In this document: positions 31,776 through 51,185 of the stretch, in pieces | How positions within the stretch are numbered: the first letter of the stretch is position 1 | How the letters are laid out: each line of letters begins with the position of its first letter | Origin: Haliclystus octoradiatus | Lineage: Eukaryota > Cnidaria > Staurozoa > Stauromedusae > Haliclystidae | Direction of reading: 5' to 3' | Length of the DNA stretch: 64,000 nucleotides | Assembly: GCA_916610825.1 (NCBI GenBank) | Contig: OU744453.1 | Coordinates: 14,074,469 to 14,138,468 of the forward strand | Position numbers and translations under genes: made by a program | Notes under the pieces: generated by a model | Databases searched by the model: none | Told to the model about the DNA's origin: nothing | Seen by the model: the letters and a program-made list of their open reading frames with translations, nothing else

Positions 31776-32751
31776 ATCTTTTAATAATAATAATAATAAT
31801 AACAATCATAATTCGATCTCAAATTTTTGCATTCGGGGTTCAAAAACATTCAAGTGAACACTATTCACAAACACCCTACAAGATGCCAATATAACGGATG
31901 AGGTAGGATCCATCAACTAATGACGGGCCCACATAATATCAAGTAGCAATAAATCAAATAAAATAAAAAATTAATTTGAATATAACTATAATTTGTAAAC
32001 CTCTCCTTTGTATGTTTTCATAAAAATTTTGTTTTGATTGTTAAAGTGTCTTACTCTGATTGTCTACGCATTCTGCAGCTTGATCCATTAGAGTTGCAAC
32101 AAGTCAGAATAGTCATGATAAAGCTATATATAATATCACGTGACTTAGTAGGTTTAAAACTTGAACCTTATCATTGTACATTATGACAAATCCAACACAC
32201 ATCATACGCGGACATAGATTGGAATTGAAATTCAACAATCCATCACTTCTTGAGTACAGCAACAAATAACTTTTTCTTCGTACAAACCAATTATGGAATT
32301 TGTTTGTGTAATGGTATTAAAATACTATTTGAGGGGGTGTCGGCAAATAATTTGCCAACTGCAACCGAGTCCAATCCGGATGTGTAACCATAAATTCGAA
32401 GCAAATTATTGTGCTTATCTTAAGTTGAATCTGTCACATAAAATTTTACCCTGCATGCTCAAATTATACATTGATCTAAGGTCATCATCAAAATACTTCC
32501 CGAAAGTAATGATGAAAACTTTTGGGCCATGTTTTTAAGACATTCTATCTAGCCCAAATTTCTCTCGTCTGTCCTGAATCAAACACTAAAATTTGAAGAT
32601 ATTAATCTCTTTATAAAGTATTCATAATTTTTGTGGGCATGAGCTAGTCAAGAATTAAAAAAAAATTATTACTTCTACTCTTAGAAAGTATACATCACGG
32701 TAAACCTTTGCCATTGCTTCCCTCTTTTGCTGACAGGAGAAATGAATATAT
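31776..32751. other. No gene recognised
   Basis: Starts with a short (AAT)n tract. A plus-strand ORF at 32293-32538 has no assignable motif. Confidence 0.4.
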
Positions 32752-32958
32752 TGTTGTTTTTGTAAAGAGAGAAGAAGCCAAGTCAAGAATAGTAAATTTA
32801 ATAAACTTAAACATTAAAGAACAATTTCATTACTAAATAAAAGAAGAACGAATATCAAAAGAAATATATAAGAGAATTACTTTATTTGGTTGTGTTTGTC
32901 TCAGTGTTTATGCTTTATTTATTTACAAGTCAAAACAACAAAGAGAATGTTGTTAACA
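32752..32958 (+). repeat. 5' LTR of BEL-2
   Basis: 207 bp. It provides the uninterrupted reference for the 3' LTR, showing that the sequence tactttatttgg is split by the TIR element at 42613. Confidence 0.9.
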
Positions 32959-33244
32959 ATCCTTTAATATGGGTATAAGAAGTTTCAAGTTATTTAAAGT
33001 TATGTATATATGTTTAAATTCAAGTTATTCAAGTTATTTAAAGTTATCCAAGTTTTTCAAGTTTATTTATCATTTTTAATACAATTTACAATATTCGCTT
33101 ATCAATATATATATATGGAAAGGCAAGATGTTGAAAGACCAATATTCAATTATTGAATACTAACCTACTTTGTATATATATATATAATAAAGTAATTGTG
33201 TGGGCAAAACATCAATTTGAGTGCTCAATGCTAAAAGCAGAGCA
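32959..33244. other. BEL-2 leader, low complexity
   Basis: Repeats of caagttatttaaagttat and TA runs; no ORF. It is the untranslated leader between the 5' LTR and the point of Penelope-like insertion. Confidence 0.6.
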
Positions 33245-41039: not shown

Positions 41040-42174
41040 CGTCAAGAACTAAACGAGGAATTAGAGTTGTTGACTAAAAACAAACCAGTAAAGCAATCAA
41101 GTCAAACAAGTTGTTTAAACCCTTTTATTGAAAACGGGACAATAAAAGTAGGAATATTATGTTTAGAAAGGTTACAGTACTATCAAGCGTGTCATTAACT
41201 CCTGCTTTCAATGTAATCGCCAAAGAAAAAAAAACTTTCAACAGCAGATGGCAAATTTACCAAAAGAAAGAACCATAGTAAATCATCTACCATTTACTCA
41301 CAGCGGAATAGACTATTTTGGCCCAATGTTAGTAAAGCATGGTAGAGGAACAGTTGAAAGATATTGATGTCTTTTCACATGTCTCGTTACTAGAGCAGTA
41401 CACCTTGAAATTTCTCATTCTTTAGAAAGAAACTCTTTTTTAATGGCATTGCACAGATTCATGGCAAGGAGAGGAAATCCAAGTGAAGTCTGATTGGACA
41501 ATGGAACCATCATTTCAGCTGCTGAAAAGGAGCTTAAAGAAAGTGTCCAAAAGTTAAACACGAAGAAAGTCCATAACGAAATGCTACTGAAAGCAATAGA
41601 ATGACATTTTATTCCTTCTTATTCGGCTCATTGGGGTGGTGTTTGGGAGCGCCTAGTTAAAACGGTGAAGGTAGTTATAATATCCCTTGTTAACAAGCAG
41701 CTGTTAACAGATGAAGAGTTGCTTTCATTCATGTGTGAAGTGGAGAAAATACTCAACGATCGGCCTATTACAAAACTAAGTCTAGATTCAAATGATAAAT
41801 TGCCATTAACTCCAAGTCGTCTACTTTTATTGAGAAGAAACATGTGCACATCACCAGCAAATGATAACCTTATTCGGCGTAGATGGGAAACAATACAAAA
41901 AATTGCAAATAAGTTCTATCAGAGATTTGTAACAGAGTATCTACCATTGCTTCAAGAACGACACAAATGGCAAATTATTAAAGAATGCATACATGTCAAT
42001 GATGTTGTGCTAGTGATGAATGAGGTGTTACCCAGAGGTAAATGGCCACTTGGTCTTGTAGTAGAAGTAAATACGGGTAGAGATGGATTAATCAGAGCAG
42101 CAAAGGTGAAGATTGGTAACACATTAAAAGTACGCCCAATTACAAAGCTAGTGATATTGGAACATCACTATTGA
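41040..42174 (+). pseudogene. Integrase of BEL-2
   Basis: The first part is full of stops (for example TGA in the first core strand near 41366 and 41491), with recognisable DYFGPMLVKHGRG and TCLVTRAVHLEISHS. An open frame from 41665 to 42174 carries the last part of the core and the C-terminal Pao integrase domain (VNDVVLVMNE, RGKWPLGLVVEVNTG, RPITKLVILE). Confidence 0.8.
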
Positions 42175-42479
42175 TACGATAATACGCATTTGAGTTTATA
42201 ATTTATGTTTATACTTATTGATATCAAAGTAATAAAGCTTCTTCATCTGCAGAACTTTATCGAGGGTAGTGTTAAAAGTATAAACGTTTATTTGTGTTTA
42301 GATTGTTTGCGTTTTGTCAAGTGTTATTTTCAGGCTTAATGGTTCTCTTGTTTTGTAATTGTATGGTTTACTGTTAGTGGTGTATTGAAAGTGTTATTTT
42401 AAAAGGCCTAGTGATTCTGTTGTTTATAATTGTAAGGTGTATTGCGTAAATTCTTCCTGTCCTGTAGAAGGGAAAATAT
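42175..42479. other. BEL-2 3' untranslated region
   Basis: No ORF. A purine-rich stretch, agaagggaaaatat, lies immediately before the 3' LTR start at 42480 and is the likely polypurine tract. Confidence 0.6.
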
Positions 42480-42612
42480 TGTGTTTTTTGTAAAGAGAGA
42501 AGAAGCCAAGTCAAGAATAGTAAATTTAATAAACTCAAACATTAAAGAACAATTTAATTACTAAATAAAAGAAGAACGAATATCAAAAGAAATATATAAG
42601 AGAATTACTTTA
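42480..42612 (+). repeat. 3' LTR of BEL-2, left part
   Basis: First 133 bp of the 3' LTR; continues at 49235 after the inserted TIR element. Confidence 0.9.
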
Positions 42613-45600
42613 TAGGCGGTAACGAAAATACCAAAATATTGAGCTCTTGCAGTGCAAACACTTGGATCTACACAAACTATACGCAATATACCATTTTCAA
42701 GTGCACTGATTACGAATCCAAACTCTTCCCACGCCCTCAACCCGTATCTTCTGAGTAAAATCGTAAATAAAATAAGGCAAAATCGTATTCTGCTTTCGTT
42801 TGAAAGCCGCCATTTTTGAACGAAAGCAGACTGGGGACAATAGACTTTTGGCGCATTTTCAAAACACGCAGTGGTCAAAAATCAAAGATTAGCATGGAGT
42901 TTTGCTGTTTTCTATCAAGAAAACCTTAGTAAGATGGATGAAACGATAATATACAGTACATTTTTTTTTCATTTCCACACACTTTAGTATATATTGTACA
43001 AGAAAAGCTTAAAAGACTTGATATGACTTCGAACACCCTCTAAACGATTCCTTCAGAAAGCCGAAGATGGAGCAGGTAAGGGTACGCTTTGTTATTTGTT
43101 TACTATTTTATTGTTTTATTGATATAGAAAAACTGGAATAATGTTCTATTTCATATACAAACTAATGCTCATATTGATTATAGCGGTAACATAAAATAAC
43201 ATTTAAAAGCTTTAGTTGAGGGATATGCCATATTCCCAAACGTTTTATTTCATTTTATGAATTGACCTTAAAATCCTGTTCTAAACTAGCCTAAGTGTTT
43301 ATAAGTTACTATTGTTTATTCATCGACGTCTTCGTCACTTGAATCACTATCATCAACACAATGACCTGTATCAGAATTACTGTTTTCATTGTCATTGACA
43401 TCTTCAGTGGTTAAATTTTCACATGTGCTACATTTACATAGGCTTGTGCAGCTAAGGCCTGCTTTTTTACAGCTACATCTGTTTGTAGCACATCCAGTTT
43501 TGCAGCCACAATTCACAAAACATAGTAAGCTGTCCGGTGCTGGATTTTGTGAAAGCCATTTTATGTCTATCAAATTGTTTTCTATTTTCCAACCATGATC
43601 TATAACTGATGGGGAATTTATTATTTTACTAGTTGCACGGCGCCAAATGTACGCCTGGTAATTGCTTCGTTTGATGTGCAGCTCCAAAGAATCTCTATTT
43701 GGGGGGATAACTTCCTCTGAAAATCTGCCTGACTTGAATATGATAAATCGAAGCAGATTAACAGAGCTGTCGTCGATGTTACCCCCATATAATAAACAAA
43801 CAAATTTTTCCAAATCAGACACTAGTTGGATGGATGGGCAAACTTCTCTACCTAGGTCAGAAAATGCAGAGAGGCTGGATTCATTTTCCTTTAAAATTTT
43901 TAAGGCGGTCTTTTTACCTTTGCCATAAAACGCACTTGTGCTATCGCAACCTATAAAATAAAAAAGCAAAATAGAATTCACTAAACTATTCTTAATCACA
44001 ACAAGTTTTTTAAATATCTGAATGTTTTAAGAAGCTCATTACCTGTGGATACATGGAATCCAAGGAGTGACTGGCACCAGCTGATTCCCCAATGACTGGT
44101 AATGGTGTTTATAGATATTATTCTGCTTTTTTCACCAGCTCCAGTAGACAAAAATAGTTTACAGCTAAATTCACTGCAAGAAGCAATTAAAATGATAAGG
44201 ACATCAGTGTCAGGGCTTTGTATGATAACATTTTTTGCATGTGAGCTTGCATGCAGAGCATGGAGTACCAGCCTTGTATTTGATTTGGGTTTAATATTTT
44301 AATCTTTTGTTGACCTGATGCTGCTCTCTTTGCTCGTTCTTGTGATTTGATACTTACCTGAGGGTAGCAGTCTGCCACAAAGTCAACACGAAAAGCATTG
44401 CTACTAGTACTAATCTTTGTAAAATTGAACGTGCTAAGTCGTAAAATGTCAATTCTGCGATTTTCAACTTCTGTAAAAATGCCATAGCATCAATTATAAC
44501 AGCACAATCTCCGTAAACTTGATCAACATGGATATCCGGTGTATTTTGTTCAATTTCGTTCATGAGCTTGGATTTTTGTGTCTTCATTAACATGCCAGTT
44601 GCTGTTGCAATTGGCATTGGGTATGGTCGAAGAGAATAACTTAAAACTTCCTGCAAATCTATATCTCTTGTTGATGCTAATAACAGGAGCCTTGCAAACA
44701 TGTCTTTGGTGTTTTTGAGAGCAATTATTTCACCTTTAGAAGTTCTCAGGTTAACAGATTTGTACATGGATTGAAATGTTTTTACTGAAGACCTTGTGAT
44801 AGTTGCATACAAATCAGGATTTTCAATTAATAGATTATCCTTTGTGAAACTCAGTAACTTTTTTTCACCATTTTGTGCAAGGTTTGATAATGATATTTCT
44901 ACATCTTGAGAAGCAACCTCTCCATTGCAAATGTTAACCAAAGATGACGTTTCAAGAGTAAATGGGTTAGTCATGGAGTTGATAGTATCAATTAATGCAT
45001 GCACAGTGCTTTCATCCTTGAATATTCTGGACCGATCAAGATCTTTTCGATTTCTGTAAATAATTAAAAATGAATAAAAATTGCTTGTATTTGCTGAAAT
45101 GCTCTCTTTGGAATTTCATCCTAAAAGCAAATATTATTTCATGACTCGATGTAAATTGTATACCTTTTAACGGTGTTTGAACCTGTTAAATTCCAGCACT
45201 GCTGTGTAATTGCTGCTCTATCTGCTTGAGATTAAATCCATTTGAAAACGGCATGTCTATTTCTTGATATTCCTACAAGTCCACCTAAACAGAAGGTTGT
45301 GGAAATTACATTTCAGAGTAATGTACTGTTTCTTTTGTGTTTCTATGATATCAAACCTACCTTTGGTTTTGCAGTCACGGTTCATTGTTTGCTCAATGGT
45401 TTGATCACATGGAATAGCTGAAAATCCATACTTTTGCTGACGTTGGACAGTCCAGTTCTTTGCAACAAGATCAAAAAATTCTGAATATGACAAAAATGTA
45501 TGAGAGTAATATATAGTCTTGAGGTCACATGGAATCCTAGGAAATCAACCTTTTAAAATAGTTGGACTAACCTTGATCTGTGTTGCGCAAGGAATCCATT

Positions 45601-48600
45601 TCAAGCCAGTAGCACAATGCATACCTGGAATAGTTCGTACGGTCAGAAATGAAAAACCATGGTAACATTAAACGAACTCCTGAGAGATGCATTTCCCAGT
45701 TAGATGTGCGTGTTGCACGGATCAACATCATCAACAACTCTATCATGTCAATATACTGAGACCAATAATGAAATGTACTATGTTTAAGGGACATCTCCTT
45801 GACAAATTCCATGTACCTGTAAAAACAGAGTCATTGTTGTTTTTTATTGTTTCTATGTCACTGAACTTTGTATGCCTAAAATGATCCAAGATTTTAAATG
45901 TTTTAAATGTACCTTTCATAAATTTTACCAACCACACTACCATTGCTGTATGTATCTGAGGTCTTAGCATGATATGTTGCTTTTGCTGTTTCGATGACTG
46001 CATTCACGTTTTCTTGTTCGTCAAATGGAAGGGAATCTAAAAATGCTTGGAACCGAAGGCGTTCAAGAGCTTCATACATCAATTTGTGTGTCCGTACACC
46101 TCTGTTGTAATGTTTTCCAGACATCACACCACGGACAGAACCAGCCGCAACGGCTTCTGCTTCAATAAGTATATCCTGTTAGAATCAAAAGAAAATTATG
46201 TACATTAGATGTGCACACTTAATGATCGGATTTAAATTTTCAGAGTCGAGTCTTACTTACCTGCAAACCACCGTCCTGGAACAATTTGGAAATACCACTC
46301 ATAAATGACATTATCATGTGAAAATCTCCTAAGTGTAACACCAAATTGTCGTTGAACTCTGGAATTTTCCACCTAAAACGAATTTTGTTACACTTTCATG
46401 CATCCTTATTAACAAATTATGTGGGATTGATTCAACATACAAAAACATATTATAATTTATAGAGTATTACTGACCTTATATGCTGTGCTTTGCAATAAAC
46501 TCCTTCATCAAATACCACAACTGTTTTTTTCAACTCCAATTCATAGGCCATTTCCAGGCAACGTTTTAATACATCATAGACAGTCTGAATTTCAGTGACT
46601 GGCGCATTTATAACAGGAAGGTAAGTAATTTTGGAAGTATGATTTGGATAATTAGCAGTTTTGGTATTGAAACCTGTCCAACCTGGTAATAGCTCTTCAC
46701 ACAAAGCATGATTTAACTTGCACAAGATGTATACAAAATTATTTTTTAAAGGTGAAAGCTTTTCTTTACTGCAATTTTCATAACTAGTCTTGATATCTTC
46801 AAATGATTGATTTATTTTAGGGGAAACCCTTTTTCCTAGCACAAATGTGGATAGCTGAGGCGATGGTAGATTGACCTTTTTAAGCTTTTTGCTGAAGCGA
46901 ATTGGTTCAATATTTTCCTCTTTATTCTTTGTTAGTCTTTGAATGCTGATACCATTTGCTACATGCGTAGACCCAGCCCCACTTAAAGTTTGCTCATTGA
47001 AATCCGCATTATCATAGACAAACGTAGTAAATACTCCTTTTTCTAGACCATTTGGGATATCACCTTGACATTTAATAGCTTTTATAGTTAGCGCTGTTTC
47101 CAAATCCTTTACTGTTGTTTTTGAAACACAATGGCCAAACTTGTACAGCATCTCAATCACTTTATTTGAACCTGATATCTGACGTATTGCAATTGCTAGA
47201 CATAGTGCCTTGCGAGTTTGATTTCTCCCACGTGATGATATATAAACAATATCTTCAATTACTGACAGGATTTGTATTTTTATTTTTTCAGGCACCTTTA
47301 CCTTTTCATCAAAGTTTGGATCCTCAGAAAATCCCATAATCCATGCAAAAAAATTGTAGAGCAATGCAGGAATGCTTTCATTTATTGCATGTTGTGAAAC
47401 ATCATCTGCTGTTGGTGGCCATATGTCGGCCATGCCTTGGTAAGATTTAATGCAATGACGTAATGTCATAGCTATATTGAAAATTGGTATTTTCATGCAA
47501 TGTTCAACTTCAGTCGACTCATGCTTCAAGTCAATATGCTCTAAGTCAATATTCATCCTCAAATTCCTCTGTACTGCTAATTTCATCACTATCGTCTAGT
47601 TTTGAATCTGCTTCATCTGTTATGGCATCAACCACCTCTCCTGTTGTCAATTCATCAATAAATACTATCTCGCTTTTTGATCTTCTAAATGGTTTATGGA
47701 AAATTAAGTTTTCGTAGTTATCTTTTAGACGTAGATTCAAACGACATGACTGATATGAACTTGCATCAAAATTGCCAATTCGATCAACATATTCTATAAA
47801 TATCTGAAGCAGGGTTTTGAGGAACATCGCTTGCTTTTCTCGTATTAATTTGATTTCAATTATTACTTTGCAGAATGTTCTGAATGGTTTTTCATATGGA
47901 GAAAGTTTATTTCCTTTGCTATCCCTGCTAGCACGTGTCAAGAACCGAATATACTTTTGGTAGCAATTTCTATGGTACCGGACCTTTATAGCAACACAGT
48001 CGTAGCCCCGTATTTGACGTAAAATATTTTCATCATCTTTTTCCTGGGCAGCATCACGCAGCAGACCAGCATCAAAAGTCTCTGCTAGAAATAATTTTTG
48101 TGAAACTCTCTTCTTGTTTTTCTATAATAAAAATAATTCACTTATCAGTACTACATTACTTTTAAAATATTATTACTATACAAAACGATTGATGTAATTA
48201 TATAGAATAGTATACTCACATGATCAGTTACCATACGTTTTTTTCGTTTGCATATGATGCATATTTCAGGTAATAAATATTTGTTCCTTTTAGTCCCATC
48301 TGTTCAGCATAAATTTCTAGGTTTCAGCCCGCCTAATGACCTAGTGACCCTTTTCTTCTTTTCTGCTGGGCTGCTGGTAGCTGACACAACTGTTGGATGG
48401 TTTGGTTGCTTACTTGCCGTGTTTCCAGAAGGTGAACGTGCTCTCCGAAGCTTGGATTTGTCAGTAAAATTTCGATAACACCTCATATGATAAAATAAAC
48501 TACCATCTGCAGGTGCAGTGCTTTTTTCATTAGTAACCTCTGGCACAGTTTGGAATGACATACTGGCAATTTTTGTTGAGGCATGATCTTTCAACATCCA

Positions 48601-49234
48601 TTCCTGTCTTCTACAATAGAATGTTTCCAGTGTGGCTGCGGTGAACTGTATAAGATCCCCATCTACACCATCATAATGAATAAGGCACTTTTGTTTTCCT
48701 TTGAATTGGTCCATCACCAAGAAGTTATATTATATGTTCACAAATCACAACATAATTTTCGTTGAAAAACGATCAATTTCGCTGCATGCTTCCACATTTC
48801 AAAATTGTGGATAAAATATGCTTGAAATATGTGAAATGAGGTTAGATGATTGATCCTGTCGCTTTATTTTGCAATCGGTACACTTTTAACTGATTTATAA
48901 TGTGTTTTTGATTATCTATTATTATGTTGTTTTGTTTTACGATATCATTTGTATCGCGTTGCTGTGGAAACTAATGTCTACCATTATGATTTTTGCATTA
49001 AAAAGAGGCTGCAAGCGTAAATGGCTTCCACAACGAAGCGGATTCAAAGAGATTAATGTACCGTGTTTAACAGTGGATATATCAAAAGATACGCCGGGCA
49101 GGTTTGGGAACTTTATGAATTCTGGACTTGTATAGGGTATTCAACAATAATCCGAGATGTTTGAGTAGATCCAAGGTTTGCGTCACGAGGTGCTTGTTTT
49201 AGCAATATTAGAATATTCGCGTTACGGCCTATTA
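42610..49234. mobile_element. 6.6-kb TIR element carrying a FEN1/XPG-like nuclease gene
   Basis: The element spans 42613-49231, with ends TAGGCGGTAACG and CGTTACGGCCTA. These are 12-bp inverted repeats with one mismatch, and partial similarity extends to about 28 bp. It is flanked by TTA (42610-42612 and 49232-49234). The 207-bp 5' LTR of BEL-2 is a natural empty site and confirms both the boundaries and the 3-bp duplication. Its only gene is the nine-exon minus-strand gene at 43316-48714, which leaves about 700 bp of 3' and 520 bp of 5' flank inside the element. A 3-bp TWA target fits PIF/Harbinger-type integration, but the encoded protein is not a Harbinger transposase. Superfamily unassigned. 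Confidence 0.85.
43316..48714 (-). pseudogene. Spliced gene: cysteine-rich N-terminus, FEN1/XPG-like nuclease and CXC tail
   Basis: Nine exons inferred from GT/AG sites with consistent phases: 48714-48220, 48121-46475, 46372-46261, 46175-45913, 45816-45572, 45480-45361, 45284-45164, 45053-44043, 43950-43316; about 1550 codons. N-terminal Cys/His elements are visible (YHMRCYRNFT, EICIICKRKKR, RYHRNCYQKY). The middle has TTFVYDNADFNEQT, VVVFDEGVY and VLHLGDFHMIMSF, possibly an RNase H-type core (inference). The C-terminal third shows, in FEN1/XPG order, VIIDAMAFL, VADCYPQVSIKSQERAKRA, SPDTDVLIILIA and GCDSTSAFYGKGKKTALKI (helix-hairpin-helix-like). A tail follows with NCGCKTGCATNRCSCKKAG. Defects: TGA at 48304, TAA at 45234-45232, frameshifts near 47560 and 44425. 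Similar uncharacterised proteins are, to my memory, scattered in many invertebrates. Confidence 0.75.
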
Positions 49235-49308
49235 TTTGGTTGTGTTTGTCTCAGTGTTTATGCTTTATTTATTTACAAGTCATAACAACAAAGAGAATGT
49301 TGTTAACA
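49235..49308 (+). repeat. 3' LTR of BEL-2, right part
   Basis: Last 74 bp of the 3' LTR, ending AATGTTGTTAACA. 133 plus 74 gives 207 bp, the length of the 5' LTR. Confidence 0.9.
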
Positions 49309-49814
49309 ACCCCCATACTAGGAACGGCCCTGAGGGTATAATGGGATAATTCCAAACAATTCTATTGGCATAAATGGTTGATAGTCTTGATCATAGTATC
49401 GTATCATGAGCTGCGATAGAATTGGAAGGGGGTGGCATCATCAAACGCTTTGTAACTGACATGATTTATCGAGTTTTGTACGGAGAAGTTTGATATCAAA
49501 AATTTATCAAGAAATTTGGGGTTTTGATTAGTTTGTTTCTAGTTTGCATTGACGGCACTAAAGTAAATGTTTTACCATGCATTTCTGCATACCCTCTTTG
49601 CTCAGTGAAATAAAACGAGTTAGTAGTCGGAAAACATTAGGAAATTTAACGATTTGTCGGAGAGTAAAATGAGTGGCTGTTTATTGCCATGTTAAAGAAG
49701 TTTTGTAAAATTGTTGATTCAAACATTTAACAAGTTAGGACTAATATAATGTAGCTGAAATGTCACTTCAAACTTGTGACTTTGAGAGCTAGGAGTTAGG
49801 TTTAATACGTAGTA
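49309..49814. other. No gene recognised
   Basis: AT-rich sequence without assignable ORFs between BEL-2 and the next hAT. Confidence 0.5.
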
Positions 49815-50052
49815 ATAATAACCAGGGGCGGATCTAGGGGGGTGCAAAAGGAGCGCTTGCACCCCTTCATAATTTTCGAAATGACGTAAATACTATTTCA
49901 GTAGAAACCGAAAGAAAGCTAAAGTTTTCATTTTAAGCGAAAATTCGAGATAGGAGATCTGTTTTGTTTTTGGTAATCCTTTTCTGAAAGATTCTAATCT
50001 TGTTTCATCCAAAGACGTGAATGTCTGACGAATCATTTTTATCAAACCTTTT

Positions 50053-50369
50053 GATTGGAGCGGTTTTCATCAAATGCACCCCATCATATGCAAATCAGTT
50101 CGTCTTAATGCAAAAGAAGCCTTGAAACTCTGTCTACTGATTGGCGCGGCTTGGTAACTTCAAATGCACCCAATCATATGCAAATGAGCAAGCTGGATAC
50201 AAAAGAAACAGGACTTTTCTGCCTCGTGATTGGCGCGGATAAGATCACTTGCACCCCCTCATATGCAAATGAGTTCGCTTCAAACTATACACGTGATTAA
50301 ATTTTACTTATTTCTGTATTCTGATTGGAGCGGTTTTGCAACATCAAATGCACCCCCTCATATGCAAAT
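50053..50369 (+). promoter_or_regulatory. Four modules of inverted CCAAT box plus octamer
   Basis: Each module has GATTGG(A/C)GCGG followed 35-40 bp later by CAT ATGCAAAT preceded by a gcacccc word. GATTGG starts at 50053, 50138, 50228 and 50323; ATGCAAAT starts at 50088, 50178, 50263 and 50362. ATTGG is an inverted CCAAT box and ATGCAAAT is the canonical POU-factor octamer, as in histone H2B and snRNA promoters (established motifs). The spacing is regular, and the last octamer is about 130 bp before an ATG. Promoter function is inference. Confidence 0.6.
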
Positions 50370-50497
50370 TAGCTTCATCCGGGACATATCAAAATAATCT
50401 CAACCAGGAAAGAAACTGAAATCCAGATTAATCGGATTTTCTTGTCAGTACAACCACACTTTGGTGTTCTCAAACCATTCCAAATCGAGAAATCATC

Positions 50498-50671
50498 ATG
50501 GCGGACTTTCAACTAACATTGGAGCAAGCTATTTTAGCACTTTCTGATGAGAATGAACAGGACCTGAAAGTTGTTTATGATGAAATTATGTGTGAAATGC
50601 GTTTTCTTTCTTCTGATGAACATTACGACTTGATAGATGATATAGGAATAGAAACGCAGAAATATATATAG
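50498..50671 (+). CDS. 57-codon ORF inside hAT, function unknown
   Basis: ATG at 50498 in a strong context (A at -3, G at +4), 57 codons, TAG at 50669. The product begins MADFQLTLEQAILALSDENE and is acidic, with probable helices and two DEH/DEI-type clusters, no signal peptide or membrane segment. It lies directly downstream of the CCAAT/octamer array. It could be a small accessory protein, the first exon of a lost transposase, or a captured host fragment. I recognise no family. Confidence 0.45.
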   Translation: MADFQLTLEQAILALSDENEQDLKVVYDEIMCEMRFLSSDEHYDLIDDIGIETQKYI

Positions 50672-50699
50672 CCTACCAAAGTCGTTGGAAAGCTGTGAA

Positions 50700-51185
50700 A
50701 GCAAGGATACGCCACATTTTGCTTTAAGGAATGAATTATGAAATGATATTTCATGGATAATTTACTTCATATTTTGTATTCCCTCGACCTTTTGTTCGAC
50801 TGTTGGTTTGTTTAAACTTTCCTTGTGTTTATATATTTTGCTATGTAAGCCAGAACGCCACGTTTTGATTTAAGGTGTGAAATTCTACAAATATCTACTT
50901 TTAAATTTCATTTATGATTTACTTCATGTTTTGTATTCCCTCGACCTTTTCTTCGACTGTTGGGGCTTGTCTACACTTTCCTTGTGTTTATATATTGTGC
51001 TGTGTAAGCCAAACTGCCGCGTTTTGATTTAAGGTAGGCCTATGAATTATCAAATTAAATGTCATGGTTGATTTACTTCATGTTTTGTATTCCCTCGACC
51101 TTTTCTTCGACTGTTGGCTTGTTTACACTTTCCTTGTGTTTATAATTTTATAGATATCGTTGTGTAAGTTGGAATTTAGAACTTC
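50700..51185. repeat. Three tandem copies of an approximately 155-bp unit
   Basis: The segment tttacttcat(g/a)ttttgtattcc plus cctcgaccttttcttcgac recurs at 50761, 50918 and 51072 (spacing 157 and 154 bp). It lies downstream of the 57-codon ORF within the hAT element. Confidence 0.85.

Follow-up and report, generated by a model that had tools for sequence, protein, structure and literature searches.

A decayed, very probably AcademX-type DNA transposon and its nuclease-encoding relatives in the genome of Haliclystus octoradiatus

A 6619-bp insertion in the genome of Haliclystus octoradiatus is very probably an AcademX-type cut-and-paste DNA transposon in a decayed state, as judged by the published description of AcademX. 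It lies in a stretch of 64,000 nucleotides, here called the window (assembly GCA_916610825.1, contig OU744453.1, 14,074,469 to 14,138,468 of the forward strand), and relatives elsewhere in the assembly point to a large group of DNA transposons in this genome that carry a nuclease and seem to have been active recently. The protein of the uninterrupted relatives, about 1500 residues long, would comprise in order a Cys/His region, a putative DDE transposase, a FEN1/XPG-superfamily nuclease and a CXC-like tail. The result is mainly one of classification, as the kind of element is already known.

The element occupies 42613-49231, starting with TAGGCGGTAACG and finishing with CGTTACGGCCTA, and has TTA on either side. 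Its left end and the reverse complement of its right end (TAGGCCGTAACG) are identical at 11 of 12 bases and both begin 5'-TAG; the 12-bp inverted ends reported in the initial annotation are therefore present with one mismatch. A weaker likeness extends to about 29 bp, and an additional 17-bp inverted block with 94% identity lies inside the element. The insertion splits one of two direct repeats about 10 kb apart, and the other copy, upstream, is intact and supplies the empty site. The element's flanks match 32738-32884 on the left and 32882-32962 on the right, and because these matches overlap by exactly three bases, TTA, we conclude that a 6619-bp unit was inserted with a 3-bp duplication. 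The element lies where it was first placed, and the length first given is exact.

The direct repeat is 225 bp long; its two copies differ by nine mismatches, and their similarity ends at both borders. The same annotation had called the repeats retrotransposon LTRs; the split repeat and its intact partner are borne out, and the LTR identity fits the two-copy layout and an integrase-like ORF before the second copy (41605-42174), which we take to resemble the C-terminal part of an integrase of BEL/Pao type. Beyond the element, window positions 50039-50373 hold four repeats of about 61 bp at irregular spacing, each with TCATATGCAAAT (octamer-like ATGCAAAT) after a CACCC block.

Table 1. Coordinates of the element, its empty site and its modelled exons, as window positions
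Feature	Position	Strand	Basis or remarks
Left target duplication, TTA	42610..42612	.	Flanks compared with the intact repeat 32738-32962
Left inverted end, TAGGCGGTAACG	42613..42624	+	Imperfect match runs on to about 42641
Right inverted end, TAGGCCGTAACG (minus-strand reading)	49220..49231	-	End comparison
Right target duplication, TTA	49232..49234	.	Flanks set against the unsplit repeat
Intact direct repeat (LTR) of host retrotransposon, empty site	32738..32962	.	TTA at 32882-32884
Modelled exon 1, N-terminal Cys/His region, ends CIICKRK	48220..48714	-	Aligns with the ORF of relative L055
Modelled exon 2, Cys/His region continued, terminates in a frameshift	47558..48121	-	Small deletion when compared with copy L012
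Modelled exon 3, main part of putative DDE transposase	46475..47557	-	YDNAD within 46999-47019, FDEG within 46495-46521
Modelled exon 4, LGDFH motif	46261..46372	-	Motif at 46315-46338
Modelled exon 5, further part of putative transposase	45913..46175	-	
Modelled exon 6, further part of putative transposase, NYSRY region	45572..45816	-	
Modelled exon 7, third acidic motif CDQTIEQ	45361..45480	-	Motif at 45386-45412
Modelled exon 8, in-frame nonsense codon in the window copy	45164..45284	-	
Modelled exon 9, start of FEN1/XPG nuclease, two deletions	44043..45053	-	IDAMAF 44474-44500; ADCYPQ-S-K-R 44325-44378; DTD within 44194-44220
Modelled exon 10, nuclease GCD and GKGK, CXC-like Cys tail, stop	43319..43950	-	GCD and GKGK 43892-43948; Cys tail 43421-43510

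We found a second copy of the element about 88 kb away (C10:14028721-14035344), with flanks common to both loci: window positions 41392-50885 and C10:14027500-14037000 (L009) are 99.83% identical across all 9.5 kb fetched. Because its flanks are identical too, the second copy is a segmental duplication or an assembly duplicate of the locus and no separate insertion, and we rejected it as independent proof of mobility. Besides this duplicate, every copy of the window's own family in the stretches fetched has at most one recognisable end, and the TAGGC-ended family consequently rests on one complete insertion. One such copy, L012, is about 96% identical to the window where aligned and has frame changes and stops of its own. 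A lone 55-bp right end of the family also lies on contig C7 (L021, 1501-1555), beside a coding sequence that by eye appears RT-like.

Further evidence for mobility comes from relatives in the same genome. A search with the last exon gave 153 scored matches at E <= 0.001, a count for which 150 of 257 candidates were scored, so that copies remain uncounted, and in which some copies appear as two pieces; among the matches listed, 23 lie inside frames of 1455-1544 aa. We fetched ten relative loci outside the window's family (L052-L061), picked for their long frames, and each of the ten contains a stop-free frame of 1457-1542 aa (stop to stop). Two of them, L052 and L053, lie on two contigs and show 99.96% identity across the 8 kb that we compared; element ends were not found in the stretches fetched for this pair, which has a 1518-aa frame with tandem repeats of about 167 bp downstream. 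The other eight and the window element make nine two-ended elements, and in all nine the inverted ends begin TAG. For six relatives we measured how far these ends align, which is over about 70-370 bp, and the elements are about 6.4-6.6 kb long in those measured.

Matching 3-bp duplications flank eight of the nine two-ended elements: TTA in the window, AGG in L054, TTT in L055, AAA or AAAA in L056 (thus possibly 4 bp), TTC in L057, GAA in L058, GTT in L059 and CTT in L060. In L061 no target duplication was found (TAA versus CTG). At the window's triplet frequencies, the chance of at least eight duplications in nine elements is about 4e-13, and no target consensus is visible among the eight. The initial annotation had looked to other genomic copies with TTA duplications as a check; relatives with their own inverted ends do carry the gene, and TTA is in none of their seven duplications.

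Two pairs of relatives were compared change by change, and in both dS is higher than dN across the whole ORF. L054 and L060 sit at two sites, each with its own duplication, and their 99.06% identity covers exactly the TAG-to-CTA unit; between their whole ORFs we counted 17 synonymous and 8 nonsynonymous changes (dS 0.018, dN 0.0022, dN/dS about 0.13). For L058 and L061 the whole ORF gives 19 synonymous and 23 nonsynonymous changes (dS 0.020, dN 0.0064, dN/dS about 0.32). Within the nuclease segment alone the counts are 0 synonymous and 1 nonsynonymous in the former pair and 3 and 4 in the latter, too few for selection on the nuclease to be judged separately. A scan for relatives in viral contigs yielded none that could be confirmed.

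We aligned seven of the relatives' ORFs at full length, omitting L053, L060 and L061 as near-duplicates of included rows. Searched against PDB, the resulting profile matched Exonuclease 1 in all five sequences listed (E=1e-5 to 4e-4), with an alignment that spans the D-x-Y/S-x-K-R segment, A-D, D-T-D and GCD. A profile of the nuclease sub-alignment returned the same five Exonuclease 1 sequences (7.6e-5 to 0.0025) and an unrelated GTPase at 0.76. Judged by these profile matches, the C-terminal half of the relatives' protein contains a module that is a FEN1/XPG-superfamily nuclease, in agreement with the mobile FEN1/XPG-like nuclease first proposed, and its residence in a transposable element is confirmed. 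The acidic motifs of the nuclease (motif I D, D-x-Y..S-x-K, [E/D]-A-D, D-T-D and G-C-D) are kept in all seven relatives; motif I, which lies outside the printed Exonuclease 1 match, was assigned by eye. The reported CXC tail is present as well, as a CXC-like Cys tail after the nuclease that Pfam TCR matches on the window exon at E=0.0037, under the cut-off.

The element nuclease can be aligned with Exonuclease 1, a host nuclease of the group that includes FEN1 and XPG, over the acidic motifs, from D-x-Y..S-x-K to GCD, and over GKGK. Unlike these host nucleases, it is one module of a transposon protein of about 1500 aa that is present in many mobile copies.

N-terminal to the nuclease, the seven relatives also keep a set of acidic residues in the order of a DDE enzyme, spanning about 390-450 residues. 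In L052 numbering, D430/D433 (DNxD), D599 (DQ) and D841 are kept in 7/7 and the E of D-x-x-h-E in 6/7; the window equivalents are DNAD, FDEG and CDQTIEQ. The order suits, we infer, a DDE transposase in which a long insertion precedes the last of the three residues, and the upstream region is a putative RNase H-like DDE transposase. The statement that no standard transposase is recognisable is thus probably wrong. Against PDB, the profile of this region gave no match except a chance-level glutathione S-transferase (E=0.37). Against Pfam, none was above cut-off; DUF6589 appeared in two of the seven at E=0.0018 and 0.061, below its gathering score, and the other weak matches were mutually unrelated. 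A single-sequence structure model of window exon 3 alone reached a pLDDT of 35.7, too poor for use. The N-terminal Cys/His region of the relatives' protein is probably DNA binding.

In the stretches and ORFs scanned, no Pfam model was above cut-off and no transposase family was matched, and the prokaryote-oriented NCBIfam matched none of three ORFs. With no Pfam model above cut-off for their proteins, copies of the element can easily pass as unknown host genes.

Short target duplications of fixed length with inverted ends are the product of DDE strand transfer, which bears on the idea that the FEN1-like nuclease by itself moves an element of a new kind, whose upstream region serves only for DNA binding or structure. 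Among the large domains, the nuclease is indeed the only one that a profile match confirms; for the upstream region, no match to PDB or Pfam exceeded the threshold. We nevertheless consider this idea very unlikely, since D residues in DDE order are kept upstream across seven divergent relatives and the duplications and inverted ends are those expected of a DDE enzyme. Academ is, moreover, listed among the DDD/E superfamilies in PMC9587614 and PMC10294476.

The 3-bp duplication could also suggest another superfamily that captured a host nuclease gene. PIF/Harbinger (at TWA sites), EnSpm/CACTA (with CACTA-type ends) and Zator all make duplications of this length, and the window's TTA agrees with the TWA preference of Harbinger. 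None of the relatives' seven duplications is TWA, on which ground we rejected PIF/Harbinger; the TAG ends of all nine two-ended elements are not CACTA, which excluded EnSpm/CACTA; and the scans that matched no Pfam transposase family count against the whole group. In each of the seven relatives aligned, the nuclease forms part of the fused protein and is therefore not a recent capture. Taken together, we hold out very little prospect for a captured nuclease in one of these superfamilies. FEN1/XPG proteins are host repair enzymes, which could suggest a host repair gene present once in the genome and flanked only by chance by inverted sequences. The gene is not single-copy: it has 153 scored genomic matches and element-bounded copies at different sites, with relatives that carry it between their own inverted ends, and the empty site in the paired repeat records the insertion. 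The empty site, together with relatives in many copies, refutes a host gene in our view, with next to no probability left to it.

An AcademX element remains the preferred reading. The nuclease class of AcademX is XPG; the lineage was reportedly first described by Kapitonov and Jurka in 2010 in Repbase Reports 2010, and AcademH is said to be a lineage treated by Kojima in 2020. The duplication made by Kolobok elements is TTAA. According to a passage of PMC10045372, AcademX comprises Academ transposons with a nuclease and duplications of 3 or 4 bp, and AcademH has a helicase and duplications of 9 or 10 bp; AcademH is likewise given as a lineage of the Academ superfamily in PMC10045372 and PMC10799480. 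Since AcademX is already in print, the element does not qualify as the undescribed system for which it was first taken. Our literature search found nothing naming both Academ and XPG as whole words, and nothing with three terms from a set on XPG/FEN1-like nucleases and transposons; among the papers listed for AcademX or AcademH, one names AcademX.

Like AcademX, the elements described here have terminal inverted repeats, an element-encoded nuclease within the transposon protein and duplications of 3 bp, perhaps 4 bp once (8/9). We saw no difference from the published description of AcademX in the features compared. AcademH, as characterized in PMC10045372, shares membership of the Academ superfamily and differs in having a helicase and 9-10 bp duplications in place of a nuclease and 3-bp duplications; Pfam scans of our stretches and ORFs matched no helicase family. 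The Kolobok lineages KolobokE, D, P and H offer an analogous design, in which accessory nucleases or a helicase accompany a DDD/E transposase, according to PMC9587614. Their accessory enzymes differ from the one found here. The TTAA duplication, too, is Kolobok's. Curated bivalve Academ elements average 5565 bp (PMC10294476).

In the working that we propose, the 5'-TAG inverted ends are most likely bound by the transposase, which would cut the element out and join it to a target with a 3-bp stagger. The nuclease fused to it would most likely process ends or flaps that arise from excision or after strand transfer, cleaving the opposite strand or trimming flaps during excision or integration. 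Such processing, if it occurs, would explain the shorter duplications of the nuclease lineage compared with the helicase lineage, and the contrast between AcademX and AcademH suggests that the nuclease module may set the length of the target duplication. Bacterial TnsA+TnsB works by a two-nuclease transposase logic. A comparable division of labour, in which the DDE module would cut and join the 3' strands and the FEN1-like module would cut the opposite 5' strand at the element's ends or trim target flaps, with trimming giving 3-bp duplications as against 9-10 bp in the sister lineage AcademH, is a speculative option that we think has a rather small chance of being right. The uninterrupted relatives make the role of the flap-endonuclease-like module in transposition testable, including any control that it may have over duplication length.

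The window copy itself has decayed. We modelled its gene, including the splice sites, as ten minus-strand exons that run from 48714 down to 43319, giving a read-through of 1549 positions, X included. By BLASTP, the read-through is 32% identical to the L052 ORF over residues 75-1152 and 42% over 1232-1508, and the exon 3 region is 29% identical over 368 positions (E=1e-50). We read a GTAAGT donor-like site after CYPQ as coding because the relatives continue there. Compared with L012, the window copy has two small deletions that shift the frame, a nonsense codon and a larger deletion of about 216 bp. One of the small deletions and the loss of about 216 bp both fall in exon 9, and the missing stretch contains the nuclease E-A-D motif, which is present in L012 and corresponds to [E/D]-A-D in the aligned relatives. 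An in-frame TGA in exon 1 (about 48304-48306), where L012 has no sequence, could be one more lesion, or a sign of a small intron that the model overlooks.

Since the reading frame is broken in several places, the window copy is by its sequence dead, a pseudogene and not a spliced gene in working order. The spliced gene first described as filling the element is there, as are its motifs and its CXC tail. As read from its frame, the copy cannot encode a working protein and, if mobile at all, would need that of a relative. The window gene is modelled with nine introns (43319-48714), and the homologous gene of L054-L061 is a single uninterrupted frame.
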